Assembly (NCBI GenBank): GCA_013286315.1
Contig: JABDFX010000020.1
Location: 1 to 37,310 of the forward strand
Direction of reading: 5' to 3'
Source of the DNA: Bacteroidota bacterium
Lineage (GTDB): Bacteria; Bacteroidota; Bacteroidia; Chitinophagales; Chitinophagaceae
Length of the DNA: 37,310 nucleotides
Both the position numbers and the translations under genes were made by a program. The notes under the pieces are model-generated. The model searched no databases and was not told the DNA's origin. It saw only the letters and a program-made list of their open reading frames with translations. Each line of letters starts with the position of its first letter. The stretch's first letter is position 1. Of the stretch, positions 8,539-29,707 are shown piece by piece.

Positions 8539-10932
8539 ATGCCCGTTACATACCGGCTAAAAGCCATTTTTGCCTGCCTCTTTTTTTCTTTTTGTTTCTG
8601 CCTGGCAAATGCCCAGGTTAAAAAGCGTGTCAAACACCGGCCAAAAGTTGACTCCGCAATTCTCGAATTAAATAGCCGTATTTCTGATTCTATACTGAAC
8701 GAAAAAGAAATCAAGGATACTACCGTTCCAAATATGGTGAATAAGGTTGAGACCTATTCATTCAGCCTGAACCGTGCGGAAAATTTCTTTGAAAGAAGAC
8801 TGGATACTACAGGCATGTTCCAGGGAATTTCAAAAATGGAACGGGCATTGAATTATTTTCATAATAAACTCGAACGAAATGATAATCCACTCAACCTCCG
8901 GAACCTGAACACCGCCTCCGTTTTGCTGAGCGAATCGCGCGAGACAATAACTGATTGGCAAAAATCACTCGATTTTTATATTGATCAGCTAAACGGAATA
9001 CATCAGCGAATCCGTACAGTTAAACATGACAGCAGTTTATTAAATGATTCGTTAAATCAGATTCTGCATGGTGAAATGAGCTCTGTATACGAGCGGTCCC
9101 TGTCACTGGATTCAGTGTATCATACTGCGGCAATAAAAGTAAATACTCTCCGCAACCGTGTTTCAATAAATTTTTTATTGCTTAAAGATCTTCAAACCAC
9201 CATCATTGAGCGGCAACAGGCTATTGGTCAGGCCATGTGGAAGCAGGAAGAGTCGCCATTTTTAGCATTTTGTTCTACTGACTATGATGTAACAATTTGG
9301 GATGTCATAAAGGACAGTCTAGGCCGGTCATTGCGGGTGATCAAAATATTTATGGCGACCACCTGGGATACCAGGACTATTAACATTATTATTTGGATTT
9401 TACTTCTGATCTGGTTCCTGGTTACACGTCATGTCGTTCGAAAGAAACCGGACAATGAATCGATCCTGAGAAATCTCACTTTCCTGAAAAAATCCGCAAT
9501 ACTTTCCAGTTTACTGCTTTTGTTTACTTATGGATCTTTAGTATATGTAAGCGCGCCGGCAGCCTATGTTCATTTGAATGAATTCATTCGGTTAATCCTG
9601 TTGTCCATTTTACTTTCCTTCTATCTTACAAGAGCGGGAAAAATTATTTTGTATTGTGTAGCAGTATTATGGCTCGTGTTTGCAATCGATGACCTGTTGG
9701 TGGATTCCGCTTATGGGGAAAGATGGGGACTCATGCTCGGAGGGCTTTTCTTGCTGGGTTTATGCATTTGGATGTTAATGAAGAGAACAATTATTTTTAA
9801 AAACCTTGAAGATTCCAAAGCACGTAAATGGGTGCTTTTTATTACACTGAGTCAAATAATTGTTTCAATTGTGTGTAACCTGACCGGAAGAGTTACACTC
9901 TCAAAACTTTTTGCTTTCAGTGCTATCGACAGTCTGGTGCTGGCTGTTACTTTGAAAATTTGCTGTTCGATACTGGTAGATGCAGTCTATACCCAATCTG
10001 AAGTTTTTCATAACCGGTTTTTTGCCTTCCTGAATTTCGTAGACCTGAAAAATAAACTACGCGGTGTGCTGTGGATAGTCGCCATTTTTGTTTGGATACT
10101 TGCAATTTTAAAAAATCTGACCTTGTATGACCGTTTCAGCGGAATGGTCATATATTTCATCAACAAACCAAGAACAATCGGCAGTATTAATTTCTCTTAT
10201 GCAAGCGGACTACTTTTCATACTCATTATATGGATTTCTTCTGTGTTATCTCAATTCGTCAATTTCTTTTTCGATGAAAGTCATAACCCCGGACCTCAAA
10301 AAAAGACAAAACTAGGTTCTATCGCACTGATTGTACGGATCAGTATCTGGACAGCCGGATTTCTCATTGCGGTCGCAGCTGCAGGTATTCCGCTTGACAA
10401 AATATCCATTCTAATAGGCGCACTCGGAGTGGGCATTGGGTTTGGACTTCAAAATCTGGTTAACAATCTGGTGTCCGGAATTATCATTGCTTTTGAACGA
10501 CCCATACAGATAGGAGATACCATTGAGATTTCGGGAAAAACGGGAACAGTGCAGGAAATAGGTGTAAGATCAAGCCAGATCAGTAATGGCGAGGGAGCCA
10601 ATATCATTGTGCCCAATGGCGACCTTTTATCCCAGCAGTTGATCAACTGGACCATGCATAACCGGAACAAACGTGTTAAAATTTCATTCAGTGTTCCCTA
10701 CCAATCAGATTTCCGAAAAGCCCGGGATCTGGTTTTAGAAGAATTAAATAAAAATCAGAAAATTATGCGTGATCCAAAACCTGCCGTAACGGTTGATACA
10801 TTCGCAAATAATGCTGTCAACTTTGAAGTTAAATTCTGGGTGCCTGACATGTCTGAAGTAGGTACAATTAGAAATGAATTAATGATGGACATCATCAGTT
10901 CATTTTCTAAAAATACGATTGTGATGGCTTAA
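8539..10932 (+). CDS. Large MscS-family mechanosensitive channel
   Basis: Inner-membrane channel that probably releases solutes on hypo-osmotic shock. The open frame begins with a TTG at 8518, but the ATG at 8539 gives a clean signal peptide (MPVTYRLKAIFACLFFSF ... ANAQ) and is preferred; this makes 797 residues. A periplasmic, helix-rich region (about residues 30-270) is followed by many membrane segments (about 290-600) and the MscS core: the pore helix GALGVGIGFGLQNLVNNLVSG, then ERPIQIGDTIEISGKTGTVQEIGVRSSQI of the beta domain and the soluble vestibule (VKISFSVPYQSDFRKARDLV onward). This is the MscK/YbdG-like large type rather than minimal MscS. It ends in a GCTTAACGC repeat whose TAA is the stop codon, and is convergent with the next gene. 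Confidence 0.92.
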   Translation: MPVTYRLKAIFACLFFSFCFCLANAQVKKRVKHRPKVDSAILELNSRISDSILNEKEIKDTTVPNMVNKVETYSFSLNRAENFFERRLDTTGMFQGISKMERALNYFHNKLERNDNPLNLRNLNTASVLLSESRETITDWQKSLDFYIDQLNGIHQRIRTVKHDSSLLNDSLNQILHGEMSSVYERSLSLDSVYHTAAIKVNTLRNRVSINFLLLKDLQTTIIERQQAIGQAMWKQEESPFLAFCSTDYDVTIWDVIKDSLGRSLRVIKIFMATTWDTRTINIIIWILLLIWFLVTRHVVRKKPDNESILRNLTFLKKSAILSSLLLLFTYGSLVYVSAPAAYVHLNEFIRLILLSILLSFYLTRAGKIILYCVAVLWLVFAIDDLLVDSAYGERWGLMLGGLFLLGLCIWMLMKRTIIFKNLEDSKARKWVLFITLSQIIVSIVCNLTGRVTLSKLFAFSAIDSLVLAVTLKICCSILVDAVYTQSEVFHNRFFAFLNFVDLKNKLRGVLWIVAIFVWILAILKNLTLYDRFSGMVIYFINKPRTIGSINFSYASGLLFILIIWISSVLSQFVNFFFDESHNPGPQKKTKLGSIALIVRISIWTAGFLIAVAAAGIPLDKISILIGALGVGIGFGLQNLVNNLVSGIIIAFERPIQIGDTIEISGKTGTVQEIGVRSSQISNGEGANIIVPNGDLLSQQLINWTMHNRNKRVKISFSVPYQSDFRKARDLVLEELNKNQKIMRDPKPAVTVDTFANNAVNFEVKFWVPDMSEVGTIRNELMMDIISSFSKNTIVMA

Positions 10933-10950
10933 CGCTGAAAGCCTGACGCC
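10927..10950 (+). repeat. 3'-end repeat copy at the mscS-type gene stop codon
   Basis: GCTTAACGCTGAAAGCCTGACGCC. The core GCTTAACGC matches the element found at the end of the amidotransferase gene (28279-28287), and here too the TAA is the stop codon. This is the most diverged member of the family, but its position relative to the gene is the same. Confidence 0.5.
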
Positions 10951-10958
10951 AATGAATT

Positions 10959-10989
10959 AACAATTCACAATTAAAAATTGACAATTGTT
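10959..10989. terminator. AT-rich palindrome between convergent genes
   Basis: AACAATT (10959-10965) pairs with AATTGTT (10983-10989), and inside it CAATT (10968-10972) pairs with AATTG (10976-10980) around an AAA loop, with a 2x2 internal mismatch. It fills the gap between the converging mscS-type gene and Gfo/Idh gene and could act as a weak bidirectional terminator. It also looks like the AATTGTTAATT-type intergenic motifs common in AT-rich Bacteroidota genomes. Confidence 0.45.
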
Positions 10990-12425
10990 TACCATCCTTT
11001 CCTGTATTCTCTTTTTACAAACTGATTGGCTTCATCAAAATTGCTGATCTTCATATTAACCGCATCCCAGATCAACTTTTTTCTTCCGGGATAAGAAAAT
11101 TGAGGCCTTCCTGAATTTCCCGTTGTAGCTTTCGCAACACGTATATTCCAGGTCCGGAGTGCAAGGTTACCCATTAAGATTGTCTCAGTTAGCGGACCTG
11201 CATATTCAAATGGAGAACTGACTTCTTTTCGCCCATAACCTGCGACACAGGCGTTGATCCATTGAACATAATGACCTTCCGGCACACGGGCAATTGTTTG
11301 CGGAACATTTACTTCTTTTGTTTTAGTAGTTGGTAAAAGTTTCGGATCACTGCCATAGGTTCCACACATGATTTTTCCTTTTGTTCCTATAATCAAAACA
11401 CCGCCGCCACCATTATCACCAAATTGTTCATCAGCGCCCAGTTCTTCAGGCCTTTGCGGAATAATGCCACCATCCATCCAGTGCATTTTAACATCCGGTT
11501 TTCCATTCTTGCCGGGGAAATTCAAGATGACTGAAGATGCAGCCGGACAACTTTCCGGAAAATACTCAGGTGTCCAGGCCTTTTCATATATGGAAACCTG
11601 ACTGCATTCAACAGAATTGGGATAACCAAGGCCCACCGTTTTGAATGCCGGATCTATTAAATGGCAACCCATATCACCCAGCGCCCCGGTTCCGAAAGCC
11701 CAGAATCCACGCCAACTGAAAGGAACATACTCTTTATGATAGGTTTGTTCCTGAGCAGGCCCGAGCCAGAGATCCCATTTTAATTCCGGTGGCACAGGAT
11801 CAGTGCTGTTGGGCGTGCCCATTCCCTGCGGCCAGATAGGACGGTTTGTCCATACCTGTATTTCTGTTGCATCCCCGATAATGCCCGCATGATACCACTC
11901 CTGCATAGTGCGTACACCGTCTCCGGATGAACCCTGATTGCCCATCTGGGTAACTACTTTATATCTTTTAGCCGCCTCTGTTAACATTCTCGCCTCGTAA
12001 ATATCATGCGTCAAAGGTTTTTGAACATACACATGTTTGTCCAATTGCATGGCGGCGAGTGCAGCTACGGCATGACCGTTGTCTGGTATAGAAACGGAAA
12101 CCGCATCGATTGATTTATTTTCTTTTTCAAGCATCTCGCGCCAGTCATAATATCTTTTTGCATTTGGAAAACGACCAACGGATTTTTTTATCTGCCTGTC
12201 ATCTACATCACACAGAAAAACAATATCGGCATTCGGACTTTTAGAAAATTCTAACAAGTCACTCTCTCCCTTTCCTCCGGCTCCGATAGCGGCAATCCGA
12301 AGTTTATCGCTTGGAGCAATGAAACCACGGCCCATAACATGTCTTGGCACAATAAAAAAACCAGCTGCTGCAAGTGAACCTGTTTTTAAGAAATCTCTTC
12401 TCGATTTATTTTCTCCTGTTTTCAT
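10989..12425 (-). CDS. Tat-exported Gfo/Idh/MocA oxidoreductase, paralogue 1 (QKP variant)
   Basis: A 478-residue NAD(P)-dependent oxidoreductase-family protein exported in folded form. Residues 8-30 are a twin-arginine signal (SRRDFLKTGSLAAAGFFIVP). The Rossmann fold follows (KLRIAAIGAGGKG, then FLCDVDDRQ and DAVSVSIPDNGHA) and then the C-terminal Gfo/Idh/MocA domain with the bacterial-type extension. The family's catalytic EKP motif is QKP here (residues 135-137, HVYVQKPLTHD); the lysine is retained. The substrate is probably a sugar or sugar-derived compound but cannot be read from sequence. It lies directly downstream of a close paralogue (12504-13925) on the same strand, with 78 nt between them containing a 3'-end repeat, so tandem duplication is likely. 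Confidence 0.9.
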   Translation of the reverse strand: MKTGENKSRRDFLKTGSLAAAGFFIVPRHVMGRGFIAPSDKLRIAAIGAGGKGESDLLEFSKSPNADIVFLCDVDDRQIKKSVGRFPNAKRYYDWREMLEKENKSIDAVSVSIPDNGHAVAALAAMQLDKHVYVQKPLTHDIYEARMLTEAAKRYKVVTQMGNQGSSGDGVRTMQEWYHAGIIGDATEIQVWTNRPIWPQGMGTPNSTDPVPPELKWDLWLGPAQEQTYHKEYVPFSWRGFWAFGTGALGDMGCHLIDPAFKTVGLGYPNSVECSQVSIYEKAWTPEYFPESCPAASSVILNFPGKNGKPDVKMHWMDGGIIPQRPEELGADEQFGDNGGGGVLIIGTKGKIMCGTYGSDPKLLPTTKTKEVNVPQTIARVPEGHYVQWINACVAGYGRKEVSSPFEYAGPLTETILMGNLALRTWNIRVAKATTGNSGRPQFSYPGRKKLIWDAVNMKISNFDEANQFVKREYRKGW

Positions 12426-12470
12426 ACGTTTTGCAATAAAATGTTTGGAAGGTAATAAAACTAAATAACC

Positions 12471-12506
12471 CTTGCGTTAGGCGTTACGCTTTGTGCGTTA
12501 CGCTTA
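12471..12506 (-). repeat. 3'-end repeat copy after Gfo/Idh paralogue 2
   Basis: On the minus strand the gene's TAA stop opens the block TAAGCGTAACGCACAAAGCG, followed by TAACGCCTAACGCAAG. It contains three units of TAACGC in the sense orientation of the upstream gene. The block lies in the 78-nt gap between the two Gfo/Idh paralogues. Confidence 0.6.
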
Positions 12507-13925
12507 GTATGTTCTATATTGACGTTTCACGAACTGGTTTGCCGGAGCAAAATTAGTTACTTCCATTTTTTCTCCGTCCCAGAGTAATTTTTTACGTCCC
12601 GGGAATATCTTATTTCCCAGGCTGTCATTTTCGCTGTATTGATAACTACGAACTGCCAGGTTTCCCATCAAAACGATTTCCGTCAATGGGCCGGCAATGG
12701 CAAAATCAGAACTGGTATACGCTCCATAACCCATTTTACAGGCCTTTACCCATTGCTGCTGATGACCCTCAGTACTTCCTTCTACTAAAGGAAATTTTGA
12801 TTTTGCCATGACCCTGTCCTTCATCAGGCTCGTAGGAAGCAGGGTTGCATTCGCACCAAATTTTCCGGCCATTAATTTTCCTTTGGTTCCCTCGAAAATC
12901 ATTCCTCCATCTACCTTACTCATCTCTTCATCAGGTAGAAGTTCAGCAGGTCTCTCCGGCAATATACCGCCATCATACCAGATCATTTTAACCGGTACCA
13001 TTGAACCACGTTGCGGAAATTGAATGTAAGTTTTTGCGGAAGGGGGAAATCCTTCGGTGTTGATGACTTCTTTAAAATATCCGCTATATACAGATCCAAT
13101 GCTGGTTTCAGCAGAAATAGGATAACCCAGCTTCAAGGCCAGATAGGGTGAATCGATAAAATGGCAACCCATATCACCAAGTGAGCCGGAACCATAATCC
13201 ACCCATCCCCGCCAGATCGCGGGAAGAAATGCAGGATTATAATCCCGTTGCGGCGCAGTACCCAGCCAGAGATTCCAATCCAGTTCGCCGGGAACTTCAA
13301 ATTGTCCGGTCGGTGTAACTATGCCCTGTGGCCATGTGGGGCGATTGGTCCATACATGCACCGTATGAACGTCTCCCAATAATCCGTCCTGCAACCAGGT
13401 TTCTATAAGGCGGATATCGTCGCCGGAAGCACCCTGATTCCCCATCTGGGTTACTACCTTATATTTTTTTGCCGCCGCTGTAAGCATCCTTGCTTCATAG
13501 ATATCATGTGTAAGGGGTTTTTCAACATATACATGTTTTCCCAGTTCCATGGCAGCCATGGCGATCGGCGCATGCATATGATCCGGAGTTGTTATCATGA
13601 CAGCATCAATGTTCTTTCCTTCTTTATCCAGCATGATTCGATAATCCTTATAATAAGGCGACTTTGGCCATTTTGTTCTTGCATTCACAGATCGCCGGTC
13701 ATCTACATCACATAATGCCGTAATATTATCGGAACCGTTATTGTAGGCCTTGGGAAGATTTGTTTCGGCCCTGCCGCCCACCCCTACTCCGGCAATATTT
13801 AATTTATCACTGGGAGCAATGAATCCACGCCCCAGCACATGCCTTGGTACAATAAAAAAACCGGCCGCAGCCAATGAAGAATTTTTAATAAAATCTCTCC
13901 TGGAGTTATTGTATTTTATTTTCAT
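12504..13925 (-). CDS. Tat-exported Gfo/Idh/MocA oxidoreductase, paralogue 2 (canonical EKP)
   Basis: A 473-residue paralogue of the downstream gene, with the same plan: twin-arginine signal at residues 8-30 (SRRDFIKNSSLAAAGFFIVP), Rossmann fold (KLNIAGVGVGGRAETN, LCDVDDR, DAVMITTPDHMHAPIA) and the Gfo/Idh/MocA C-domain. It keeps the canonical catalytic EKP at 135-137 (HVYVEKPLTHD). The stretch GFIAPSDKL just after the signal and PLTHDIYEARMLT are identical or nearly so in both paralogues, while the C-terminal halves have diverged more. Probably acts on sugars in the periplasm; substrate unknown. The ATG at 13925 is placed exactly where the Tat signal begins. Its own promoter was not recognised. 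Confidence 0.91.
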   Translation of the reverse strand: MKIKYNNSRRDFIKNSSLAAAGFFIVPRHVLGRGFIAPSDKLNIAGVGVGGRAETNLPKAYNNGSDNITALCDVDDRRSVNARTKWPKSPYYKDYRIMLDKEGKNIDAVMITTPDHMHAPIAMAAMELGKHVYVEKPLTHDIYEARMLTAAAKKYKVVTQMGNQGASGDDIRLIETWLQDGLLGDVHTVHVWTNRPTWPQGIVTPTGQFEVPGELDWNLWLGTAPQRDYNPAFLPAIWRGWVDYGSGSLGDMGCHFIDSPYLALKLGYPISAETSIGSVYSGYFKEVINTEGFPPSAKTYIQFPQRGSMVPVKMIWYDGGILPERPAELLPDEEMSKVDGGMIFEGTKGKLMAGKFGANATLLPTSLMKDRVMAKSKFPLVEGSTEGHQQQWVKACKMGYGAYTSSDFAIAGPLTEIVLMGNLAVRSYQYSENDSLGNKIFPGRKKLLWDGEKMEVTNFAPANQFVKRQYRTY

Positions 13926-13985
13926 TTTCGATTGAGAATAATAATTGAAAGTCGACGACTGTAAAAATTCGCCTGTTCCTTATTT

Positions 13986-14021
13986 GCTTTGAGCCTTACG
14001 CGTTATGCGTTGTGCTTAAAC
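13986..14021 (-). repeat. 3'-end repeat copy after the OsmC-family gene
   Basis: On the minus strand it reads CTCGTTTAAGCACAACGC then ATAACGCGTAAGGCTCAAAGC. It starts over the stop codon (TAA, 14018-14016). The ATAACGCGTAA core matches the copies at 29551-29591 and 29667-29707. Confidence 0.65.
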
Positions 14022-14432
14022 GAGGCTCGCATCCAGTGTAATGTTAGTATTTAACAATTTGCTGATCGGGCAACCGGTCTTAGCGGCCTCATATGCTTTC
14101 TTAAATTGCTCCTGCGAAACGCCAGGTATTTTTGCTTTCAGAGTAAGAGCGGAGGAAGTGATAGAACTCGTGGGTGGATCTAATGTCACGACCGCATTCA
14201 CATCGAGACTATCCGGTGTAATGCCCATCGCCTGTAATTGAAAACTAAGCGCCATCGCGAAACATCCCGCATGTGCAGCAGCAACCAACTCTTCGGGATT
14301 GGTCCCAACCCCTTCTTCAAAGCGGGATTTATAAGAATACTGGGTATTGTTTAATGTGTTGCTTTGCGTAGTCAGTGTTCCCTTTCCGTCCTTTCCGGAT
14401 CCTTTCCAGATTGCAGTGGCAGTACGTTTCAT
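14016..14432 (-). CDS. OsmC-family peroxiredoxin
   Basis: A 138-residue protein of the OsmC/Ohr superfamily, which reduces hydroperoxides with a pair of reactive cysteines. Both are present: Cys57 in AAAHAGCFAMAL and Cys121 in AKTGCPISKLL. The beginning MKRTATAIWKGSGKDGKGTL and the motif GVGTNPEELVAAAHA are typical of the OsmC subfamily rather than Ohr. It is the last gene of the lepB - cdd - FKBP - osmC run, 35 nt after the FKBP gene, and is probably co-transcribed. Its stop codon lies inside a GCATAACGCG-type repeat. Confidence 0.93.
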   Translation of the reverse strand: MKRTATAIWKGSGKDGKGTLTTQSNTLNNTQYSYKSRFEEGVGTNPEELVAAAHAGCFAMALSFQLQAMGITPDSLDVNAVVTLDPPTSSITSSALTLKAKIPGVSQEQFKKAYEAAKTGCPISKLLNTNITLDASLV

Positions 14433-14467
14433 ATCTATAAAATTTTAGAAACGTAAGTTAGGGAAAA

Positions 14468-14944
14468 CTAATTCACCTGCAGCAGCCTGACATCAAAATA
14501 CAAGGGAGCATTCCCGGGCACAGGAAGGTATCCTGTACAACCATAACCATACGCCGAAGGTATAAGCATAATAATATGACCACCGACCCCGATTTTAGGC
14601 AACCCAATCTGCCAGCCCAAAATTAACCCGGACAGCCTTGCGCCATTCAGATTGGAATTAGATGCAGAATCAAAAATGACTCCTGACATAAGACGACCAA
14701 CATAATTCACCACCAAATTTGAAGAATAAATGGGTCTGGTGTTGTTGCCAGAATCAATGATTTGGTAATACATTCCGCTGTCCGCAGTTACCTGGATAGA
14801 TGAATCATGCGCATATTTCAATAATGCAGCAGAATCTGCAGAAGGAGGCAGAAGGGTACATGCCGTCACATCCGGCAAACCCTTGTTACAACCAAAAAAA
14901 ACAACAATCCCTACGACTACAAATACCAAAAACAATTTTTTCAT
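14468..14944 (-). CDS. FKBP-type peptidyl-prolyl isomerase lipoprotein
   Basis: A 158-residue lipoprotein. The signal peptide MKKLFLVFVVVGIVVFFGC ends in a lipobox with the lipidated cysteine at residue 19. The mature part contains one FKBP domain (about residues 60-158): YYQIIDSG, NLVVNYVGRLMSGVIFDSA, then IGLPKIGVGGHIIMLIPSAYGYG and PGNAPLYFDVRLL. It probably helps fold envelope proteins. It sits between cdd (15 nt upstream) and the OsmC gene, reading from the lepB promoter; this placement next to signal peptidase I fits a role in handling exported proteins, but that link is inference. Confidence 0.9.
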   Translation of the reverse strand: MKKLFLVFVVVGIVVFFGCNKGLPDVTACTLLPPSADSAALLKYAHDSSIQVTADSGMYYQIIDSGNNTRPIYSSNLVVNYVGRLMSGVIFDSASNSNLNGARLSGLILGWQIGLPKIGVGGHIIMLIPSAYGYGCTGYLPVPGNAPLYFDVRLLQVN

Positions 14945-14959
14945 AACAGGTGCCTTAGA

Positions 14960-15451
14960 TTAATGAGGCTTCAATTCCTGGCTACTAAACGCAAACGGCA
15001 ACAGATCCGTTGCCCTGTTGATTATATAAATTTCGCCGGAAAATCCACCCAGTATAAGACGTATTGACCGCCCAAAACGTTGTTCATACTCTGCCAGCGT
15101 TTGCCTGCATATTCCGCAGGGGCTGATGGGATGTTTGCTATCGCCCGACTCATTGACATAAGTCAGGGCGAGTTCTGTCACCGCGATGCCGGGATATACA
15201 GCAGAAGCTGCAGATAGCGTCACACGCTCCGCACATATTCCTGCCGGAAAACTTGCATTTTCCTGGTTCGACCCCGTTATAATTTGCCCATTCTCCAACC
15301 TGATGGCCACTCCTACTCTGAACTTTGAATAAGGTGCATACGCGTCGGCGGTTGCATTGCGGGCACACTCGAAAAGCTCAGCATCCGGGGCTTCCAGCGT
15401 TTTGAGGTCTGAAAATATTTGTACCGGAATATGTATACTGGTCTGCTTCAT
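14960..15451 (-). CDS. cdd: Cytidine deaminase
   Basis: A 163-residue cytoplasmic zinc enzyme that converts cytidine and deoxycytidine to uridine and deoxyuridine in pyrimidine salvage. Motifs: AYAPYSKFRVGVA for substrate binding, then the zinc site Cys73-Ala-Glu75 (FPAGICAER, Glu as proton shuttle) and Cys112-x2-Cys115 (SPCGICRQTLAE). The three-cysteine zinc site places it in the small homotetrameric class. It lies 16 nt downstream of lepB and is probably co-transcribed with it. Confidence 0.96.
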   Translation of the reverse strand: MKQTSIHIPVQIFSDLKTLEAPDAELFECARNATADAYAPYSKFRVGVAIRLENGQIITGSNQENASFPAGICAERVTLSAASAVYPGIAVTELALTYVNESGDSKHPISPCGICRQTLAEYEQRFGRSIRLILGGFSGEIYIINRATDLLPFAFSSQELKPH

Positions 15452-15467
15452 CCGGAAAAATAAAAAA

Positions 15468-21042: not shown

Positions 21043-21157
21043 TGGAGATTTTCTTTTAATCGTTGTTTTTTACCCAAAAATCGAAGGTTTGGCCCCCTTA
21101 ATCGAATAAGTTATATAAAGGGTGGCTTCATGTGCATCTTTGTATTGTTAAAGCAAA

Positions 21158-21180
21158 ATGCATAACGCGTAAAGCTCAAA
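21158..21180 (+). repeat. GCATAACGCG repeat copy not at a stop codon
   Basis: ATGCATAACGCGTAAAGCTC, then AAA. It contains the GCATAACGCGTAA core of the 3'-end repeat family and the associated AAAGCTCAAA string, but here no gene ends at it on the plus strand. It sits at the edge of the A-rich repeat block within the 535-nt gene-free region 20990-21525. Confidence 0.5.
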
Positions 21181-21376
21181 ACCGAAACCTGAAAAATCCG
21201 AAACCATCCAAGTCCGAAAAACTAAAACCGAATCCCGAAAAACTAAATTCCTGAAATGCTGAAACCGACTGAAAAACCCTGAATCCTGACCTAGAAAAAT
21301 CCGAAACCATCCGAGTCCGAAAAACTCAATCAGAAATCCAAATCCGAAAGAAAACCAGTATCGTTGAAATCCGGAT
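21181..21376. repeat. A-rich degenerate repeat block built on CCGAAA/CTGAAA motifs
   Basis: About 200 bases made largely of variations on (C/T)CCGAAA, CTGAAA and CCGAAT, very poor in T on the plus strand. A 36-base unit is present twice, at 21191-21226 and 21294-21329, with 34 of 36 positions identical and 103 bases between starts (both contain AATCCGAAACCATCC and GTCCGAAAAACT). No gene model fits: the open frame on the minus strand is low-complexity (FGFGFLIEFFGLGWF) and has no recognisable domain. The rest of the gene-free region 21050-21157 shows nothing I can name. Confidence 0.6.
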
Positions 21377-22930: not shown

Positions 22931-23047
22931 ATTGTTGTATTGAGAATACTGTGTTTTGTAGCGCTAAAAGTATTTTATTTGCAGCGCGAAATACGGACAA
23001 TTCGGGGGATTTCACAAAAATTTATCAAATCCTTCAATGTGTTTCAA

Positions 23048-23078
23048 TTGTTAATCGAATTCAAAAAACATACTTTTG
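23048..23078 (+). promoter_or_regulatory. Promoter of the DUF4270 - barrel operon
   Basis: TTG (23048-23050), 20 nt, TACTTTTG (23071-23078), exact to the Bacteroidota consensus and the same -7 octamer and following CCC as at pdhB and sdhC. The leader to the ATG at 23213 is about 125 nt. The intervening sequence holds no convincing gene. Confidence 0.68.
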
Positions 23079-23212
23079 CCCTTTTAGAAACTGCGGAAAG
23101 ACGACTAAATGAATTTAGACAACCCGATACCTGACAAAACAGTTCACCGCACCAACCCCGTCAGTTTTTTTCAATTGTCCGAAACCGGATCCATAATCAG
23201 GAGAAAATAAGC

Positions 23213-24565
23213 ATGGCAAGGAATTTTTATTTCAGGAGTCGATCCTCATTATGTTTTTTACCTTTTCTTATTGTCATAGTAATATTCGGATGCACCAAAC
23301 CCCAGATTACATTTCAAAATCTCGGTAATGGAAGCAATACGCCCAACATAGTAACCATAGATACTTTTGCCGTTCAGGTTTCAACCGTTTTTCTTGATTC
23401 ATTCACTACTTCGGGCACCAAGGCGCAATTGCTGGGCCGGTATATCGATCCTTATTTTGGAAAGGTAACCTCCCAGAGCTATACTGATATCGGAACGCCT
23501 TCTCCATTGCCTACCATTACAAATTATTCCGTATATGATTCGATCCAGCTGATTATGCGTATCGACCGAACTTTTTATGGCGATACAACACAAGTACAGC
23601 GCTTCCTGGTCAGTCAGTTGACCCAGGTCATGAATTTACCCGGGACGCAAACATCCTTTTATAATAATAATTCCATTCCTTACGATCCGGCACCGCTTGG
23701 ATCTGTAGATGTGAGGATCAATCCGACAGGCGGACTAACATCGCAACGCATTGGTGATACAATAAAAATTACAATGCCTAATAGTTTGGGCAAACAACTG
23801 TTCGGACTTTTATACAGGCAACCGGATACCATCACAAATCCAGCTATATTCAGGGGTTATTTTAAAGGATTGACCATTTACCCTGATACAAGTTTACCTG
23901 GTGCGGTGTACGGATTTAAGGATACGATGATGCTTCGTTTATTTTACCATGAACCGGGCGTTGTCGTGGCGCAAAAATCCACCGATTTCGGCGTGGTTAA
24001 CCAATCTACCCAGTTTAACCAGATAAAAGCTGACCGCACCGGAACGCTAACCGAAAATGTCAACAGGCAGACACCGGAACTTCAATCCACAGCTTCTGGC
24101 AACGAGGCCTTTTTACAGCCGATCACCAGTTTATACATAAAACTTCTTTTTCCTACCATCAGTAATCTGGCGGGGTATCCCGATTATCTGGCAATTATGA
24201 AGGCAACCCTGGAAATAAAGCCGGTACAGGGGACGTATAGTCCTATCTATAATCTTCCGCCACTTGTAAATCTTTCGTTAACGGGAGAAGGAAATACCAT
24301 CGGTGCTCAACTTCCAGTAGGAAATGGCAATTTGGTCATAGACTATTTATACGGAACTAATACGAATTATTCTTATGATATCACGGCGTACATTCAAAGT
24401 GCAATAGCACAGGGTGCACCGAATAATGCAAAGAATGGATTGATCATCGTAACACCGGCCACAGCATTCAATACCATGTTTAACCGGGCTGTGATTGGTA
24501 ACTCGTATAATGCGCAAAAGTCAAATCAAATTTCTCTGAAAATCTATTACGCCTCATATTACTAA
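23213..24565 (+). CDS. DUF4270-family lipoprotein
   Basis: A 450-residue lipoprotein. The signal peptide ends in VIFGC with the lipid-bearing cysteine at residue 27. The body shows the DUF4270 pattern: DTFAVQVSTVFLDSFTTSGTK, LLGRYIDPYFGKVTSQSY near the N-terminus, a central YGFKDTMMLRLFYH region and a C-terminal LYIKLLFPTISNL plus YDITAYIQSAI. All-beta, probably surface or periplasmic. Role unknown. The next gene starts one base after its stop codon, so the two are translationally coupled, and the Kelch-DUF4907 pair is divergent from it. Confidence 0.85.
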   Translation: MARNFYFRSRSSLCFLPFLIVIVIFGCTKPQITFQNLGNGSNTPNIVTIDTFAVQVSTVFLDSFTTSGTKAQLLGRYIDPYFGKVTSQSYTDIGTPSPLPTITNYSVYDSIQLIMRIDRTFYGDTTQVQRFLVSQLTQVMNLPGTQTSFYNNNSIPYDPAPLGSVDVRINPTGGLTSQRIGDTIKITMPNSLGKQLFGLLYRQPDTITNPAIFRGYFKGLTIYPDTSLPGAVYGFKDTMMLRLFYHEPGVVVAQKSTDFGVVNQSTQFNQIKADRTGTLTENVNRQTPELQSTASGNEAFLQPITSLYIKLLFPTISNLAGYPDYLAIMKATLEIKPVQGTYSPIYNLPPLVNLSLTGEGNTIGAQLPVGNGNLVIDYLYGTNTNYSYDITAYIQSAIAQGAPNNAKNGLIIVTPATAFNTMFNRAVIGNSYNAQKSNQISLKIYYASYY

Positions 24566-24566
24566 T

Positions 24567-25838
24567 ATGACCAAACCGAACGGTTTTGCTTCATTGCGAC
24601 TTTATATCACGATCGTTTTAACCGTTCTGTTTATCGCATCTGGTTATCCCCAAACCAATAATCAGCCTTATTCAATTCACGCCATTGGAGATATCACAGA
24701 TAATATTATCAACAGGACGAGCGGAATGGCTTCAACAGGACTCGCATACCGGAACAACAGGTTTATTATCACAAACAATCCTGCATCATTGAGCGCTATG
24801 GATAACCAGTTTTTTGCAGGAGAAATAGGCGTAAATGGTCAATACATTGACTACTCAGGAAATGGTGTGAGTGTCACGAATCACCAGTCATCCGACATTA
24901 CTTTCAAGAGATTTACACTTGGTACAAAAATATTCAGGCATTGGGGAAGTGCAGTCGGGATTGTTCCGTTTAGTGAAGAAAATTATGAGTACTCGGGATC
25001 TGATCAAATCGGCGGCAGTGCTGCTGTGATTCCGACTTACAACCAGGGATATGGTGGTATTAATAAAGTATTCTGGGCGAACGGGTATGAGTTTCTGAAT
25101 CATTTTTCTATCGGCCTCACCACTTCTTACCTTTTCGGTTCGATTAACAATAAAAATATTCTTCTCGGTCAGGCCGCTTCCATCTACCTGTCCAGCAACA
25201 GCAATACTTTTTACGATAACCTTTATCTCGATTATGGCATTCAGTATTATGGGTCGATCAATAAACATTGGGATTTTACGATCGGTGCAGTGTACGCAAA
25301 TCAGACGAATCTGAGAGCAGAAACAAATACAAATGTCATCAATCTGGATTCCAGTGTGCTGCGTTCTAAAACCACGATAGGCACCTATACGATCCCGACA
25401 AGTTATGGTTTTGGTTTCTCCCTTACAAGAAATAAAAAGTATACATTGGTGGGGGATTACAAATTTCAGAACTGGTCAAGTCTTCGATCTACTACAGGAG
25501 ATTTTTTTTATGAAAATAGTCAGCGGGCTTCCATTGGATTAGAGATCTCCAACAAAAAAGTAGCCTATAATACTTTATACGAAACGTCTTTTTTCCAGGC
25601 TGGTTTTTATTATAATAAAACCTATCTCATTGTTAACGGGACACCCATCAATGACATTGGTGGTTCTATTGGTTTAGGTTTCAATTCCAAACGAAGTGTA
25701 TTATCGCTCCTGGTGGTTCTGCAATATGGTATAAAAGGAACTACTCAAAATAACCTGCTCAGGGAAAATTATGGAAACCTGAGTTTTATTTTCTCCATGC
25801 GCGACTTCTGGTATACGCATGGAAGAAAATTTGATTAG
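24567..25838 (+). CDS. Outer-membrane barrel-like protein paired with DUF4270
   Basis: A 423-residue protein with a signal peptide (LYITIVLTVLFIASGYPQ, about 12-29). After it come YSIHAIGDITDNIINRTSGMASTGLAYRNN and NPASLSAMDNQFF, a start typical of the FadL/PorV-like 14-strand outer-membrane barrels in this phylum. Alternating hydrophobic/hydrophilic strands continue to the end (SVLSLLVVLQYGIKG, NLSFIFSMRDFWY). The start codon lies one nucleotide after the DUF4270 stop. Likely an outer-membrane pore or assembly partner for the lipoprotein; no substrate can be inferred. The stop at 25838 is only 6 nt from the convergent S53 gene, with no separate terminator. Confidence 0.78.
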   Translation: MTKPNGFASLRLYITIVLTVLFIASGYPQTNNQPYSIHAIGDITDNIINRTSGMASTGLAYRNNRFIITNNPASLSAMDNQFFAGEIGVNGQYIDYSGNGVSVTNHQSSDITFKRFTLGTKIFRHWGSAVGIVPFSEENYEYSGSDQIGGSAAVIPTYNQGYGGINKVFWANGYEFLNHFSIGLTTSYLFGSINNKNILLGQAASIYLSSNSNTFYDNLYLDYGIQYYGSINKHWDFTIGAVYANQTNLRAETNTNVINLDSSVLRSKTTIGTYTIPTSYGFGFSLTRNKKYTLVGDYKFQNWSSLRSTTGDFFYENSQRASIGLEISNKKVAYNTLYETSFFQAGFYYNKTYLIVNGTPINDIGGSIGLGFNSKRSVLSLLVVLQYGIKGTTQNNLLRENYGNLSFIFSMRDFWYTHGRKFD

Positions 25839-25844
25839 TCAGGA

Positions 25845-27437
25845 TCACAATATATTTATCACGTTCCCCAGCGGAACGCCAAGACCTGTACAGGCATCCC
25901 AACCGGGACCTGCAGAATATCCGCCATTTTTTGCTGTGATATTATTCCCTTCCGTTATGTCTTTAAATACCGGTGAAGAGGAGGCATATATTTTAGGCTG
26001 AATAAATCCAACCTTACGTTTCAATTTTTGATTTGCCAGCGCGATCAATCCGGCAATCAGTGGCGCCACTGCGCTTGTACCACCTACCACGGTCCACTGT
26101 CCGTCTACCAAAACATTATATCCGCTGGCAGAATCTGCGTTTGCTGCAATATCAGGAACACCTCTTCCTTTCTTCTTATTTCCGTTCACTGATGCAGGTA
26201 AGCTGATATTTTTCTGATAATCCGGAACCGGGAAAATATCACTGATACCTCCACCGGTTGCCCATCCGTCCTGATCATTCCAAACAGTTTCGGAATCAGA
26301 TAGTAAACGAGTGCCCCCGCAGGCAATCGCATACGGACTGCTTGCCGGAAAATCTACATGGGCCTTGCCATCCGTTTCCCGATCAGACGAACCATTATCA
26401 CCGGCAGCAACAGTTATAGTCACACCCAGTGCAGCGGCCGACATAAACGTCTCATTGAAATTCTGCATGGCCTGTTCGGTCCACTGCGATTCAGATGCGC
26501 CCCAGCTAATAGAGATAACAGAAGGACTATTTACAGAATCATGTATGGCTGTACTGATGGCGTCCAGAAATCCTTTATCCGTATTGGGAGCAAAATATAC
26601 TACAATTTTTGCCCCCGGTGCCACAGCACCCGCCACTTCAATATCCAAAGCCACTTCACCATCAGCGCTATCTGCAGTGGAAGGTGCATTCAGAGCTCCA
26701 TCTACCGATTGCGCCGTTATAACCGGAAGTGAAATGCCTAGTTTGCTGAAATAATTTTGCATATCCACGTTACGATAACCGCCACCCAACTCAATGAGAG
26801 CTATACATTCACCAGTGCCATTGACATCGCGGGGATATTTATAAGATTTGGCCACAGCATCCGGGTTATAAGAAACCGTAGTCGCCCGGGGATGAACGAG
26901 CCCCCCCTCATTTTTTAATAAATAGAACATAGGCCTTGCCTGAGGGCGGTTATCCAATCCAAATACACCCGTGACGATATCTTTCAAAATTTCAGGTATA
27001 TGAATCGAACCTGTACGGCCACGATAGCTGATTCCGTTTTCAGGAATAAAGTCAGCCAGGTTTACCTGAAAAGCGTCGTTGAATTTTTGAACCGATCCCA
27101 TTAAGATAACACAGCGTCTTGAAACGGAAGTTTGAAGAACTGTCAAATCATGTTGACGGGCAAAGTCAACAACCAAGCCGATATCTTCCGGGGAAGCACC
27201 AAATCGTCGATCGAATAATTCCCGGCTAACAGGTTTGTTTTTCCCCGTTGCAATTCCCCGTATATAATTCCGGATGGGGTTTTTCCTTCTGATTTTGACC
27301 AACACTTCAATCACCAGATTGAAGGATGTATTACCGATATTTGTCCCGGTAGGAAGTTTCCTGAAACTGCCGGCAAGTTCTATCCGGGATTCAAATTTTG
27401 CGGATGGTTTTAAGTACTTACTTTTTGCTGCAGACAT
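25845..27437 (-). CDS. Sedolisin (S53) serine-carboxyl peptidase with prodomain
   Basis: A 530-residue acid-type subtilisin-fold peptidase. Residues about 35-165 form the Pro-kumamolisin activation domain (SRELFDRRFGASPEDIGLVVDFARQHDLTV). The catalytic residues are in place: Glu261 and Asp265 (DGEVALDIEVAG), Asp347 of the oxyanion hole (VAAGDNGSS) and Ser455 in GGTSAVAPL. Spacing between Glu, Asp and Asp (4 and 82) is as in kumamolisin. The calcium site near the C-terminus (FKDITEGNN, then GPGWDACTGLG) is also present. No signal peptide is seen at the N-terminus (MSAAKSKYLKPSAKFE), unusual for this usually secreted family. Divergent from the amidotransferase gene, 28 nt apart. Confidence 0.94.
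   Translation of the reverse strand: MSAAKSKYLKPSAKFESRIELAGSFRKLPTGTNIGNTSFNLVIEVLVKIRRKNPIRNYIRGIATGKNKPVSRELFDRRFGASPEDIGLVVDFARQHDLTVLQTSVSRRCVILMGSVQKFNDAFQVNLADFIPENGISYRGRTGSIHIPEILKDIVTGVFGLDNRPQARPMFYLLKNEGGLVHPRATTVSYNPDAVAKSYKYPRDVNGTGECIALIELGGGYRNVDMQNYFSKLGISLPVITAQSVDGALNAPSTADSADGEVALDIEVAGAVAPGAKIVVYFAPNTDKGFLDAISTAIHDSVNSPSVISISWGASESQWTEQAMQNFNETFMSAAALGVTITVAAGDNGSSDRETDGKAHVDFPASSPYAIACGGTRLLSDSETVWNDQDGWATGGGISDIFPVPDYQKNISLPASVNGNKKKGRGVPDIAANADSASGYNVLVDGQWTVVGGTSAVAPLIAGLIALANQKLKRKVGFIQPKIYASSSPVFKDITEGNNITAKNGGYSAGPGWDACTGLGVPLGNVINIL
27398..27427 (+). promoter_or_regulatory. Possible promoter of the amidotransferase/ATP-grasp pair
   Basis: TTG (27398-27400), 18 nt, TACTTTTTG (27419-27427), a TA-n3-TTTG variant like the one at 18428-18436. 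It lies inside the 5' end of the divergent S53 gene and 38 nt before the ATG at 27466. Confidence 0.45.
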
Positions 27438-27465
27438 AACAGATTTTTTTGAAGATATTTGCAGA

Positions 27466-28284
27466 ATGAATCATACGTTACGCGTTGCTATACTTGATCT
27501 GTACGAAGGACGACCAAACGAAGGTATGCGCTGCATTCAGCAAATCCTTCAGGAATATAGTCGGGCTAAGGGTTTACCTGTAGTCACTAAAATTTTCGAT
27601 GTCCGTTTAAAAGAAGAGCTTCCTGATCTTTCATTTGATATTTACTTGTCCAGCGGCGGACCAGGAAGTCCGTTGGAAACAGAAGGCGTTTCATGGGATA
27701 ATAAATATATGGACTGGTTGTACAATATGGTTAAGCATAATAAAGTATCCAGTGAGGCCGACAAAAAATATGTGTTCTTTATATGTCATTCCTTCCAACT
27801 CGCGTGCCGTTTTTTTAAAACGGGCAAAGTGACAAAAAGAAAATCGACGGCATTTGGCGTTTTCCCGATCCATATGAAATCAGAAGGAAAAAAAGACGCC
27901 GTCTTCCATGGATTGAAAGATCCGTTTTATGCGGTGGATAGCAGGGATTATCAGGTCATAGAGGAGGAAAAAACCGACGTTAAAAAGAAGGGAGCTACTG
28001 TATTGGCCATAGAAAAAGAAAGGCCCCATATCCCTCTGCAAAGAGCCATTATGGCCATACGGTTTAATGAATTCATGCTGGGTACGCAGTTTCATCCTGA
28101 AGCTGATGCCGCCGGCATGAGTATGTATTTGCAAAGAGCTGATAAAAAGAAAACAGTCATAGAAGGATATGGGGAAGAAAAATGGAAAAGTATGATCCAG
28201 CAGCTCAACGATCCGGATAAAATCAGAAAAACCTATTCGGAAGTGATTCCAAATTTTTTAAATATAGCCTTAGGCAAAGCTTAA
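27466..28284 (+). CDS. Class I glutamine amidotransferase-like protein
   Basis: A 272-residue GMP-synthase-glutaminase-like protein. The frame is open upstream to 27274, but that part overlaps the S53 gene on the other strand; the ATG at 27466 (MNHTLRVAILDLYEG) is preferred. GATase1 features: LSSGGPGSPLETEG, nucleophile Cys107 in YVFFICHSFQLACRFF, and His210/Glu212 in FMLGTQFHPEAD. The nucleophile elbow, usually GxCxGxQ, reads FICHSFQ, so both glycines are replaced. That may change substrate or chemistry. About 80 nt downstream is an ATP-grasp-like gene on the same strand, suggesting a ligase/amidase pathway. The stop codon is inside a GCTTAACGC repeat. Confidence 0.86.
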   Translation: MNHTLRVAILDLYEGRPNEGMRCIQQILQEYSRAKGLPVVTKIFDVRLKEELPDLSFDIYLSSGGPGSPLETEGVSWDNKYMDWLYNMVKHNKVSSEADKKYVFFICHSFQLACRFFKTGKVTKRKSTAFGVFPIHMKSEGKKDAVFHGLKDPFYAVDSRDYQVIEEEKTDVKKKGATVLAIEKERPHIPLQRAIMAIRFNEFMLGTQFHPEADAAGMSMYLQRADKKKTVIEGYGEEKWKSMIQQLNDPDKIRKTYSEVIPNFLNIALGKA

Positions 28285-28360
28285 CGCTCAACGCATACAT
28301 TACCGCCAACTGTTAACCGTCAACCGCTTTAAGCGTTAAGCTGTAGGCATTAAGCTTTAA
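28278..28360. repeat. 3'-end repeat with inverted arms between amidotransferase and ATP-grasp genes
   Basis: AGCTTAACGC (28278-28287, containing the stop codon TAA at 28282-28284) is exactly inverted as GCGTTAAGCT (28333-28342), 45 nt apart. Between them are further TTAACCGTCAACCGC-like units, and a GCATTAAGCTTTAA string follows up to the next start codon. The whole 78-nt spacer between the two genes is made of this material, so it may fold in the mRNA between the two reading frames. Confidence 0.6.
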
Positions 28361-28362
28361 AT

Positions 28363-29568
28363 ATGATTCCTCATCTCCGAAAAATATTTAATGACTCTTT
28401 CACGGAAAAAAAATATCAGACTTTTCTGGACGACCTGAATGCTAAACATCCGGGTGCCATTGAATTCCGAATAGCCGAAACACCTGTATTCGTGCCAGAC
28501 GATTTTCGGGAAAAAATGATAAGCGCCTGCGAATCAATTGTAGATATTATCACAGCCCGTGGTTTCAAAGAAGAATCGGTCAAAGCCATTCCTCCTGCGG
28601 ATTTTGTGCCCGGAAATGAAACACATCCGCATTTCATAGCTTTTGATTTCGGTGTTTGCATAAATGAAAAAAAAGAAATCGAACCTCAGCTGATCGAAAT
28701 GCAGGGATTCCCGACACTTTACGGTTTCCAGGTTTATTATCCTGAAATGATCCAGAAACATTTTTCCATCACACGGAACTTAACTCAATACCTCGGCGGT
28801 TACGATCGGCCGTCTTACCTGAAGGCCCTGAAAAAAATTCTCATAGGCGATAACGAAGCGGAAAACACCATTTTACTCGAAATAAAACCCTGGGAACAAA
28901 AAACAAGAATTGATTTTTACTGCACACAGGATTATTTCGGAATCCAGCCCGTTTGCATAACGGAATTGATAGAAGAAGGGAACCGGTTATTCTATTTTCA
29001 CAAAGACAAAAAAGAGAAAGTACAGGTAAAGCGAATTTATAACCGGATCATTTTTGATGACCTGCATGCGCAAAAAGATTCCCTCGGCAAACATATTGAT
29101 CTGAAAAAAAAATGGGACGTAGAGTGGATCCCTCACCCCAATTGGTTTTACAGGATTTCAAAATATACGCTTCCATTTATAAAACACCCCTTTGTTCCTG
29201 AAACAGAATTCCTGGATAAAGTAAAATCTATACCGGAAGACCTTGAAAACTATGTTTTGAAACCACTGTTTTCTTTCGCTGGTCAGGGAGTTGTAATAGA
29301 TATTAAACAACAGGATATTCACTCAATCAAAGACCCCTCTAACTGGATCCTTCAACGTAAAGTAAATTACGCTCCTGTCATTCAAACGCCGGACGATCCG
29401 GCGAAAGCGGAAATCCGGATCATGTACATCTGGCCGGATGGTGCAACCAGACCCGTTCCCGCCATCAACCTGGCGCGGTTAAGCAAAGGGAAAATGATTG
29501 GTGTACGTTACAACCAGGACAGAACCTGGGTCGGAGGAAGTGTGGCCCTCTTTAAGCCTAAAGCATAA
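28363..29568 (+). CDS. ATP-grasp-like protein of unknown function
   Basis: A 401-residue cytoplasmic protein. Motifs suggest an ATP-grasp ligase: EPQLIEMQGFPTLYGF (107-122), YVLKPLFSFAGQGVVIDI (297-314, the usual lysine-then-glycine-rich loop), NWILQRKV (327-334, hinge to the nucleotide), EIRIMYIW (350-357) and NLARLSKGKMIGVRYNQDRTWVGGS near the C-terminus. This layout resembles circularly permuted ATP-grasp / glutathionylspermidine-synthetase-like proteins, but no substrate is evident. Preceded by a class I amidotransferase-like gene, so a product with an amide or peptide-like bond is plausible. The TAA stop is the TAA of the GCATAACGCG core in a 3'-end repeat. No membrane segments or signal peptide. 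Confidence 0.72.
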   Translation: MIPHLRKIFNDSFTEKKYQTFLDDLNAKHPGAIEFRIAETPVFVPDDFREKMISACESIVDIITARGFKEESVKAIPPADFVPGNETHPHFIAFDFGVCINEKKEIEPQLIEMQGFPTLYGFQVYYPEMIQKHFSITRNLTQYLGGYDRPSYLKALKKILIGDNEAENTILLEIKPWEQKTRIDFYCTQDYFGIQPVCITELIEEGNRLFYFHKDKKEKVQVKRIYNRIIFDDLHAQKDSLGKHIDLKKKWDVEWIPHPNWFYRISKYTLPFIKHPFVPETEFLDKVKSIPEDLENYVLKPLFSFAGQGVVIDIKQQDIHSIKDPSNWILQRKVNYAPVIQTPDDPAKAEIRIMYIWPDGATRPVPAINLARLSKGKMIGVRYNQDRTWVGGSVALFKPKA

Positions 29569-29591
29569 CGCGCAACGCGTAACGCCTCAAA
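29551..29591 (+). repeat. 3'-end repeat copy over the ATP-grasp gene stop
   Basis: TTTAAGCCTAAAGCATAACG, then CGCAACGCGTAACGCCTCAAA. The TAA in GCATAACG is the stop codon (29566-29568). It is nearly the reverse complement of 29667-29707, giving an inverted pair around a 75-nt spacer. Confidence 0.75.
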
Positions 29592-29666
29592 CTATAAAAG
29601 AGTAAATACAATTACATATTCTGTTTTAAAAAAGTTCCGTGCCATATACATCCTTCCACGGGTCCC

Positions 29667-29707
29667 TTTACGCGTTACGCGTTACGCGTTATGCTTTGAG
29701 CTTAAAG
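29667..29707 (-). repeat. 3'-end repeat copy after sdhB
   Basis: On the minus strand, starting 2 nt after the sdhB stop: CTTTAAGCTCAAAGCATAAC, then GCGTAACGCGTAACGCGTAAA. Three TAACGCG units are in tandem. It matches the copy at 29551-29591 in inverted orientation with only a few differences (CCT/CTC, CGCGC/CGCGT). Confidence 0.75.

Follow-up and report, generated by a model that had tools for sequence, protein, structure and literature searches.

Why do copies of a short repeat recur at the stop codons of genes in a Chitinophagaceae genome, and how did they come to be there? The question arises from a window of 37,310 nucleotides (the whole stretch of DNA analyzed here, from contig JABDFX010000020.1 of assembly GCA_013286315.1), in which an initial annotation had listed seven repeat places. 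All seven are present in the sequence; a coordinate check shows that at six of them a stop codon lies in the array or immediately next to it, and the seventh is indeed remote from any gene end. The proposed 9-nucleotide core, however, is one register of a tandem 7-base unit, AACGCNN, which has two free positions (period 7 in TRF). Nor are all copies oriented with the gene they end, because the place given as 28278-28360 also contains an inverted copy. The arrays in the window are the following.

10924-10949, plus strand: AACGCNN array that covers 10930-10932, the stop codon of the gene that ends at 10932.
10955-10986, minus strand: 7-base array of the AATTGTY family, next to 10989, where the minus-strand gene 10989-12425 has its stop; the unit is of the same kind as the flanks of a gene discussed below (contig C44, locus L262).
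12474-12513, minus strand: AACGCNN array within which the minus-strand gene 12504-13925 has its stop (12504-12506).
13986-14018, minus strand: AACGCNN array with its start at 14016-14018, the stop of the minus-strand gene 14016-14432.
21150-21189, plus strand: AACGCNN-type array with no gene-end anchor.
28276-28294, plus strand: AACGCNN array containing the stop (28282-28284) of the gene that ends at 28284.
28303-28326, plus strand, bounds by eye: heptads of CCAACTG / CGTCAACC, complementary to the CGGTTGR family, in one gap with the preceding and following arrays.
28326-28358, minus strand: inverted AACGC/AAAGC array, immediately 5' of the ATG at 28363.
29553-29585, plus strand: AACGCNN array within which the gene 28363-29568 has its stop (29566-29568); it forms the left arm of a hairpin.
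29665-29711, minus strand: AACGCNN array adjoining 29710-29712, the stop of the convergent gene 29710-30495, presumably of the sdhB type; right arm of the same hairpin.
30505-30531, minus strand: 8-base array, reading ACTCTTAT on the plus strand and AGTATAAG on the other, where the minus-strand gene 30530-32503 has its 3' end.

AACGC is thus one of several 7- and 8-base units that occupy gene ends. In the window, GCNTAACGC occurs 13 times, compared with a mean of 0.65 and a maximum of 4 in 100 dinucleotide shuffles, and in the assembled genome (hereafter G000) the tandem pair AACGCNNAACGC has 326 matches (165 + 161) vs 3 (0 + 3) for the pattern read backward. The copy number is therefore above chance; the opposite outcome had been named beforehand as grounds for abandoning the pattern. 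Among 38 relatives, AACGC tandem pairs are abundant in a few (G014, 570; G017, 444; G015, 177; G020, 49; G019, 20) and occur at about the control level in the others. At the gathering score, no Rfam family matched over the arrays, the single match in the window being a tRNA.

We scored placement relative to stop codons in a sample of 811,994 bases (24% of the assembly), using our own gene calls and the 64 arrays of at least 3 units. In 39 of the 64, a same-strand stop is overlapped by the array or lies no more than 20 nt before its start, vs 3 on the antisense strand, and if arrays were placed at random in gaps, 9.5% would be expected to lie on the correct strand no more than 20 nt away; random placement, the other outcome named beforehand as a refutation, is thus not what the sample shows. 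The sense bias is greatest for stop-overlapping arrays (30 vs 2), with 9 vs 1 at 0-20 nt behind the stop and 9 sense and 13 antisense arrays farther away. For the TAA of the core, which had been equated with the stop itself at three genes, the coincidence is at least partly a matter of stop capture: in GCGTAAC units TAA lies on the sense strand and the antisense strand is stop-free in every frame. By gap type, arrays are present in 34 of 77 gaps between convergent genes, in 66 of 328 between codirectional genes and in 13 of 99 between divergent ones; their occurrence in divergent gaps as well counts against a reading as gene-end elements.

The arrays have a second association, with small genes of the PF05635/TIGR02436 "four helix bundle" (4HB) family. 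PF05635 has no match in the contig of the window (C20), so the arrays listed above enclose no such ORF. Across 127 4HB genes, arrays of period 7 or 8 (score of at least 9) lie on both sides of 80 and on at least one side of 120, and the two flanking arrays are mostly inverted relative to each other. In the genus (33 loci cut and scored, mostly the best-scoring, of 66 PF05635 places listed), 25 loci have arrays on both sides and 31 on at least one, and the sides share units in inverted orientation at 26, in direct orientation at 4 and in neither at 3. For the best-scoring 30 loci each of the order and the phylum, one of which has just 19 nt upstream, the respective counts are 16 and 13 on both sides, 27 and 28 on at least one side, 21 and 25 inverted, and 2 and 2 direct. 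Hand counts gave both sides in 11 and at least one side in all 12 plasmid loci (12 of 30 hits, with wider flanks of 250 nt), and both sides in 15 and at least one side in all 22 loci from named genomes (22 of 30; L426 and seven loci sharing coordinates with G014 and G019 were omitted). By comparison, 166 control small genes, which may themselves contain some 4HB genes, have arrays on both sides in 7 cases and on either side in 41, and 171 control windows from the order and phylum loci in 0 and 20, respectively, at the same score. Raising the threshold to 12 reduces the two-sided count to 8/30 for the order and 5/30 for the phylum (either side, 23 and 20; control windows, 0 and 14). At the score of 9, any other repeat period is found on both sides of 0-1 loci per set (period 6 in 1/12 plasmid loci). 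The bracketing was seen in Bacteroidota and in cyanobacterial plasmids, and one-sided in one betaproteobacterium; ten genomes, mostly Bacteroidota, had been picked for PF05635 testing from a list of loci. Typically, a long same-strand ORF ends near the upstream array (27/29 loci of the genus and 57/63 of the wider sets, counted without a control set), no more than 15 nt away in 22 of the 27 and 52 of the 57. No catalytic motif was recognised in the 4HB proteins.

Do the dispersed arrays carry the units found beside 4HB genes? G000 has six 4HB genes with six units. Outside the 4HB loci it has 121 dispersed arrays, 104 of which have a tandem 5-mer core in common with at least one flank of these genes. 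This 86% comes from the third measure tried and should be read alongside 36/121 for exact 9-mer sharing and 34/121 for cyclic unit matrices, measures that we judged too strict because the unit has free positions. Individually, the six genes account for 34, 27, 24, 23, 21 and 8 arrays, one array possibly counting repeatedly, and 4HB flanks from other single genomes explain 2-53% of the G000 arrays by the same core. With the cyclic matrices at a threshold of 0.65, flanks of G017 explain 26 arrays compared with the 34 of the own flanks, and at 0.70 the figures are 18 and 16. In some relatives, the per-gene match is weak or fails (0.00 vs 0.15 in G015, 0.08 vs 0.17 in G040) or nearly equals the comparison (G041 and G020), such genomes having 3-7 arrays each, and in 6 of 9 relatives the own flanks account for fewer arrays than do the six flanks of G000 combined. 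By eye, relatives carry a different unit in the same gap downstream of sdhB and in two further gaps, which we take to be of the MoxR/DUF58 and argC/argD types. Apart from one region that contains a 4HB gene, none of 112 regions with dispersed arrays held a 4HB remnant, and the six element UTRs tested gave a single 21-nt hit outside their own flanks; therefore, the dispersed arrays are not plain internal deletions. A common element sequence beside the arrays was also sought and rejected: the matches listed were mainly array to array, with one locus matching itself and one match of 25 nt.

Overall, a small genetic element with a PF05635/TIGR02436 4HB gene at its centre is the probable source of the dispersed repeats, which would be copies of its terminal arrays. 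One alternative is that arrays are a host feature into which 4HB genes insert, as would agree with the position of most examined 4HB genes between arrays and with the 17 of 121 dispersed arrays that have no cognate 4HB flank in this incomplete assembly. Genomes without PF05635 should then retain arrays. Within the genus, however, arrays are found at 139 of 992 gene ends in 12 PF05635-positive genomes and at 1 of 275 sampled gene ends in 13 negative ones (Mann-Whitney p 7e-5; five stretches of 1-14 kb, G019, G045, G046, G047 and G004, are left out, and four negative genomes contribute at most 6 gene ends each), which makes the landing of 4HB genes in pre-existing arrays unlikely. Excluding G000, the positive genomes have arrays at 48 of 474 gene ends; G009, with six PF05635 matches, has arrays at 0/67 gene ends, and G039, with one match, at 0/18. 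On an sdhB tree of 23 genomes (a single gene, with 5 of 20 inner branches well supported and three PF05635-positive genomes absent), PF05635 presence requires 7 changes and is scattered without extra clustering (190 of 500 label shuffles as low), and neighbours differ in array-bearing gene ends (G020, 5/36, vs G043, 0/52; G002, 4/54, vs G013 and G006 together, 0/53).

Could the arrays instead form the stems of hairpins that terminate transcription in both directions or stabilise mRNA 3' ends, growing by 7-base steps? As RNA, 29545-29720 folds at -65.7 kcal/mol (z -11.8), other hairpins are apparent by eye behind sdhB in relatives, and convergent gaps are the richest in arrays. Yet 28270-28365 has a z of -0.43, a 12-nt exact inverted repeat is present in 34 and absent from 79 of the 113 array-bearing gaps, and the link to 4HB genes is not predicted, so that we consider this origin quite unlikely. 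The terminator option of the initial annotation is thereby narrowed: termination by arrays is possible at single sites such as 29545-29720 and is probably not general. Neutral slippage, by which 7-base repeats would arise in non-coding DNA and survive behind stops, with the TAA of the unit giving the stop and the orientation, is rather improbable too. An excess of heptamers in bacterial genomes is documented in the available text of Rehm et al. (2015, PMC4692102), the units are degenerate, and stop capture can account for overlap and orientation; local slippage, however, does not give one unit at many places per genome, arrays are nearly absent from the sampled PF05635-negative relatives, and two-sided arrays are rare at the small control genes (7/166). 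A REP/RAYT system is very improbable: the repeats are dispersed at gene ends with some inverted pairs, but the units form tandem arrays of many sequences rather than a single palindrome, and a search of G000 for RAYT (Y1 transposase, PF01797) gave 0 matches, an absence that carries little weight because the assembly is 58.8% complete. As for other partners, the GxxExxY nuclease (PF13366), a suspected candidate, has no match in G000, and reverse transcriptase (PF00078) occurs in 3 of 13 PF05635-positive vs 10 of 20 negative genomes of the genus, that is, with no link.

Under the 4HB-element reading, the full element would consist, in order, of the stop codon of the upstream gene, a tandem array of 7-base (sometimes 8-base) units, the 4HB gene, an inverted array and the next gene. 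The 4HB protein might recognise the heptads that flank its own gene, perhaps when both arms pair in a hairpin, and promote the movement of DNA with array ends into gaps that follow stop codons, catalysis being left to host enzymes; afterwards, slippage within arrays would multiply the units and make them diverge. That a stop codon lies in the core would be a by-product, because the elements sit at gene ends along the direction of transcription and TAA-containing units replace the original stop, and facing arms could additionally form a strong 3' hairpin. A cognate link would make both partners testable, since a unit could be predicted from every 4HB protein and a 4HB gene from every orphan array. 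For the octad at 30505-30531, the 58.8%-complete assembly yielded no 4HB gene, and the prediction is a further one in the missing part.

Among known systems, REP/RAYT (REPIN) combines dispersed gene-end repeats with a gene flanked by the same repeats. Here too, the dispersed repeats correspond to the units that flank members of a single gene family, but this is PF05635, with a 4HB protein, many short tandem units and no Y1 transposase found. Of the initial options, "RAYT-like or other mobilising system" acting at 3' ends is the closest, with a PF05635 gene as the partner instead of a transposase; the reading that fits best is a REP/RAYT-like logic with a 4HB protein, in which mobility is inferred. 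TIGR02436 genes are common and widespread (PF05635 is present in 157 of 198 sampled Bacteroidota genomes), and we know of no function for them outside the Avd branch. Among 369 genomes from the class to which a Limnohabitans genome belongs, 77 have PF05635. A literature search, with most subscription journals outside its reach, found nothing linking 4HB genes to heptamers.

The arrays are heptameric tandem repeats of a familiar form: 7-base tandem units, intergenic and present at many loci. The STRR heptamers of heterocystous cyanobacteria were reportedly described by Mazel in 1990 and, like the present arrays, comprise several 7-base families per genome; to our knowledge, they have no partner gene, and 11 cyanobacterial plasmid 4HB genes that we examined adjoin heptads or octads. 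For Calothrix, three heptanucleotides are mentioned (PMC4692102, available text). TAACTGA repeats of Beggiatoaceae, cyanobacteria and Bacteroidetes (MacGregor 2015, PMC4679880, available text) are likewise intergenic heptamers, mixed with other heptamers in some genomes and showing 7-nt-step indels between two close strains; they differ in that the Maribeggiatoa copies lie mostly just upstream of start codons, and they are interpreted as possible regulator binding sites. The GGGNATC repeats of Xanthomonas and Nostoc come close to the present arrays, with 7-base units that have free positions, 2-26 copies, a preference for the sense strand within 50 bp of a stop or across the stop itself, and 70 and 75 inverted convergent pairs in two Xanthomonas genomes (PMC4692102, available text). 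They form one G-rich family interpreted as G-quadruplexes, and no partner gene is proposed in that text; the AACGCNN unit contains no G-tract and, judged by its sequence, would not form this type of quadruplex. The closest solved structure to one G000 4HB protein is 2gsc, XCC0516, which belongs to Xanthomonas campestris according to a reference.

Avd of diversity-generating retroelements has a homologous fold (PMC10053308, available text), and the NCBIfam Avd model hit 1 of 4 tested 4HB proteins at E 4.6e-5, below the cut-off of the model. The difference is that reverse transcriptase is unlinked to PF05635 genes here, with 0 PF00078 matches in the incomplete G000 assembly. Pfam names PF05635 after the ORF of the 23S rRNA intervening sequence (S23p). 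In Coxiella, this ORF lies in the loop of an inverted-repeat stem and the sequence is termed a selfish genetic element; in most 4HB loci, a PF05635 ORF similarly lies between inverted repeats, but the Coxiella sequence is inserted in rRNA helices and has a 28-bp stem, and heptad arrays are not mentioned in the available text (PMC4990558). In the literature surveyed, as far as its available text goes, heptamer repeats have no agreed cause, and the match between dispersed arrays and those bracketing a small gene family suggests that this family drives a poorly understood kind of bacterial repeat. We tentatively propose that PF05635/TIGR02436 4HB proteins may be the recognition factors of a new class of mobile elements ending in heptad arrays, each spreading its own unit behind stop codons, by a mechanism that might also underlie the heptamers of cyanobacteria, Xanthomonas and Bacteroidota and the intervening sequences of 23S rRNA.

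The repeat copies listed in the initial annotation are real in the window sequence, but the nine-base core proposed there is a single register of a tandem array whose 7-base unit, AACGCNN as written on the coding strand, leaves two positions free. In the whole assembly of the window's own genome (G000; 3.31 Mb, completeness 58.8%), AACGCNNAACGC yielded 326 matches versus 3 for the reversed pattern. Among the 518 gene ends followed by at least 20 nt, the array score at lag 7 reached at least 12 at 103 (0, 9, 39, 1, 2 and 6 ends at lags 5, 6, 8, 9, 10 and 11, respectively). By eye, the units at gene ends comprise AACGCNN, AAAGCCT, AATTGTY, CGGTTGR, GGCRGGA and the 8-base GGAAGACT type, along with some minor others.

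The placement of arrays was examined in 811,994 bases (stretches of contigs C1-C15 and the window), with genes called by a home-made ORF and hexamer script and one missed window gene entered by hand. The reported linkage to stop codons holds up: of 64 arrays of at least 3 units, 30 overlap a same-strand stop, 9 begin 0-20 nt past one, 3 lie within the same range in antisense and 22 are more distant. Random positions in gaps put 9.5% within 20 nt on the right strand, so the placement is indeed non-random. With no unit specified, self-similarity behind stops was 0.340, 0.323 and 0.308 at lags 7, 14 and 21, compared with 0.30 at lag 8 and ~0.27 at most remaining lags; coding sequence shows none (lag 7, 0.251), and it is only slight in divergent upstream regions (0.297). 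An array extending into a gene end would turn the TAA within its unit into the new stop of that gene, which can explain the most striking detail of the initial annotation, the core TAA serving as the stop itself, with no need for a role in translation.

Small four-helix-bundle (4HB) genes of Bacteroidota occur amid such repeats, and we therefore searched G000 with PF05635. The six matching genes are flanked by AACGC, GGCAGGA, CGGTTGG, AAAGCCT, AATTGTY and 8-base GGAAGACT-type units, such that each main dispersed family of G000 has one matching 4HB flank. When scored by shared tandem 5-mer core, the six flanks account for 104 of the 121 dispersed gene-end arrays (36 and 34 by two stricter measures), compared with 2-53% for the flanks of single other genomes by the 5-mer measure. 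The match in relatives is mixed, in small samples: own flanks exceed the per-gene average of others' flanks in 8 of 10 genomes, and are clearly ahead in six (G000, G014, G007, G005, G017 and G002); in G015 and G040 the match fails. No 4HB gene bearing the ACTCTTAT unit of one window array was found in the 58.8%-complete G000 assembly. This array and other window features are:

30505-30531, array of 8-base units (ACTCTTAT) where gene 30530-32503 (minus strand) has its 3' end
1876-1949, tRNA gene, the window's single Rfam match
10989-12425 and 12504-13925, minus strand, adjacent apparent paralogues with near-identical stretches (by eye)

Arrays (score of at least 9) bracket most of the 4HB genes examined. 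Among 33 genus loci from 13 genomes (mostly the best of 66 listed places), 25 had arrays on both sides, 31 on at least one, and 26 were inverted; both-sided arrays surrounded 7 of 166 small control genes. The best 30 order and 30 phylum loci had both-sided arrays in 16 and 13 cases (8 and 5 at threshold 12) and at least one in 27 and 28. In hand-counted sets, both sides were occupied at 11 of 12 plasmid loci (11 cyanobacterial, one Riemerella; one with direct arms, by eye) and 15 of 22 loci from named genomes, with at least one side occupied at all. Upstream arms tend to be purine-rich (genus 24/29, named 16/21, plasmids 10/12, order and phylum 35/43) and downstream arms pyrimidine-rich (24/28, 13/17, 9/11 and just 23/41). 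Within search windows of limited width and without a control, upstream arms adjoined a same-strand stop at 27 of 29 genus and 57 of 63 wider loci, starting at most 15 nt from it in 22 and 52 of these; where a long ORF was found downstream (12 and 33 loci), the downstream arm ended at most 15 nt from its ATG in 10 and 28. In three cyanobacterial plasmids (L391, L396 and L398), the 4HB gene lies inside a CRISPR-Cas operon, again in an intercistronic gap, between cas6 and cas4 in two and between cas10 and Cmr3 in one.

In the 25 genomes sampled within the genus, arrays were present at 139 of 992 gene ends in those with PF05635 and at 1 of 275 in those without. On an sdhB tree of 23 genomes, PF05635 is scattered, with seven changes, so the link is not accounted for by inheritance within a single clade. 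It also holds in one direction only: G009 and G039 have PF05635 and zero arrays in their samples. PF05635 was present in 10 of 10 genomes picked for holding AACGC arrays. Reverse transcriptase showed no link with PF05635. Separately, contig 1 of a 1.5-Mb genome (G670) gave 11 weak PF05635 profile matches, 10 of which carry one of two E-values; the usual number in its class is 1-5.

The gap behind the gene we take to be sdhB (window gene names are those of the initial annotation or putative) holds an AACGC hairpin in G000, GGTTGAT arms in G007 and a different 7-base hairpin in G014; in G015, sequence resembling the end of the neighboring gene starts a few bases past the stop, with no array, and several further relatives have what resemble ordinary terminators (all relatives by eye). 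Thus, the site, and often a hairpin too, is retained while the unit varies. In several gaps of G007 (L223-L226) and G005 (L231-L233), GGTTGAT/GGTTGAC-type arms surround, by eye, a similar ~32-nt palindromic core, possibly a separate REP-like dispersed element. In G014 (L218-L222), a block around CTGAACTGTGATTTGTGGGATTAGTGGGAT recurs by eye beside heptad arrays, in gaps behind:

C60:30309-31790
C60:72647-73927
C60:74183-75241

We favor the view that dispersed arrays are copies of the terminal arrays of a small element built around the 4HB gene. The data show the architecture, the placement, the association with PF05635 and, in G000, the cognate units; on this view, the 4HB protein would recognize the array, and array-ended DNA would spread with catalysis supplied by the host. 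The title of a structure paper on XCC0516 mentions five four-helix bundles, and a putative ring of five 4HB units binding the repeated unit would fit.

Earlier reports describe heptamers at stops and in inverted pairs in Xanthomonas and Nostoc (PMC4692102). TAACTGA heptamers are known from Beggiatoaceae, cyanobacteria and five Bacteroidetes (PMC4679880), and the Coxiella 23S rRNA holds an S23p ORF within an inverted stem (PMC4990558). Our literature search found no publication that joins these systems through a cognate 4HB gene for each array family. The dispersed arrays are nearly free of other element sequence, so that the array alone seems to be spreading, as with REPs.
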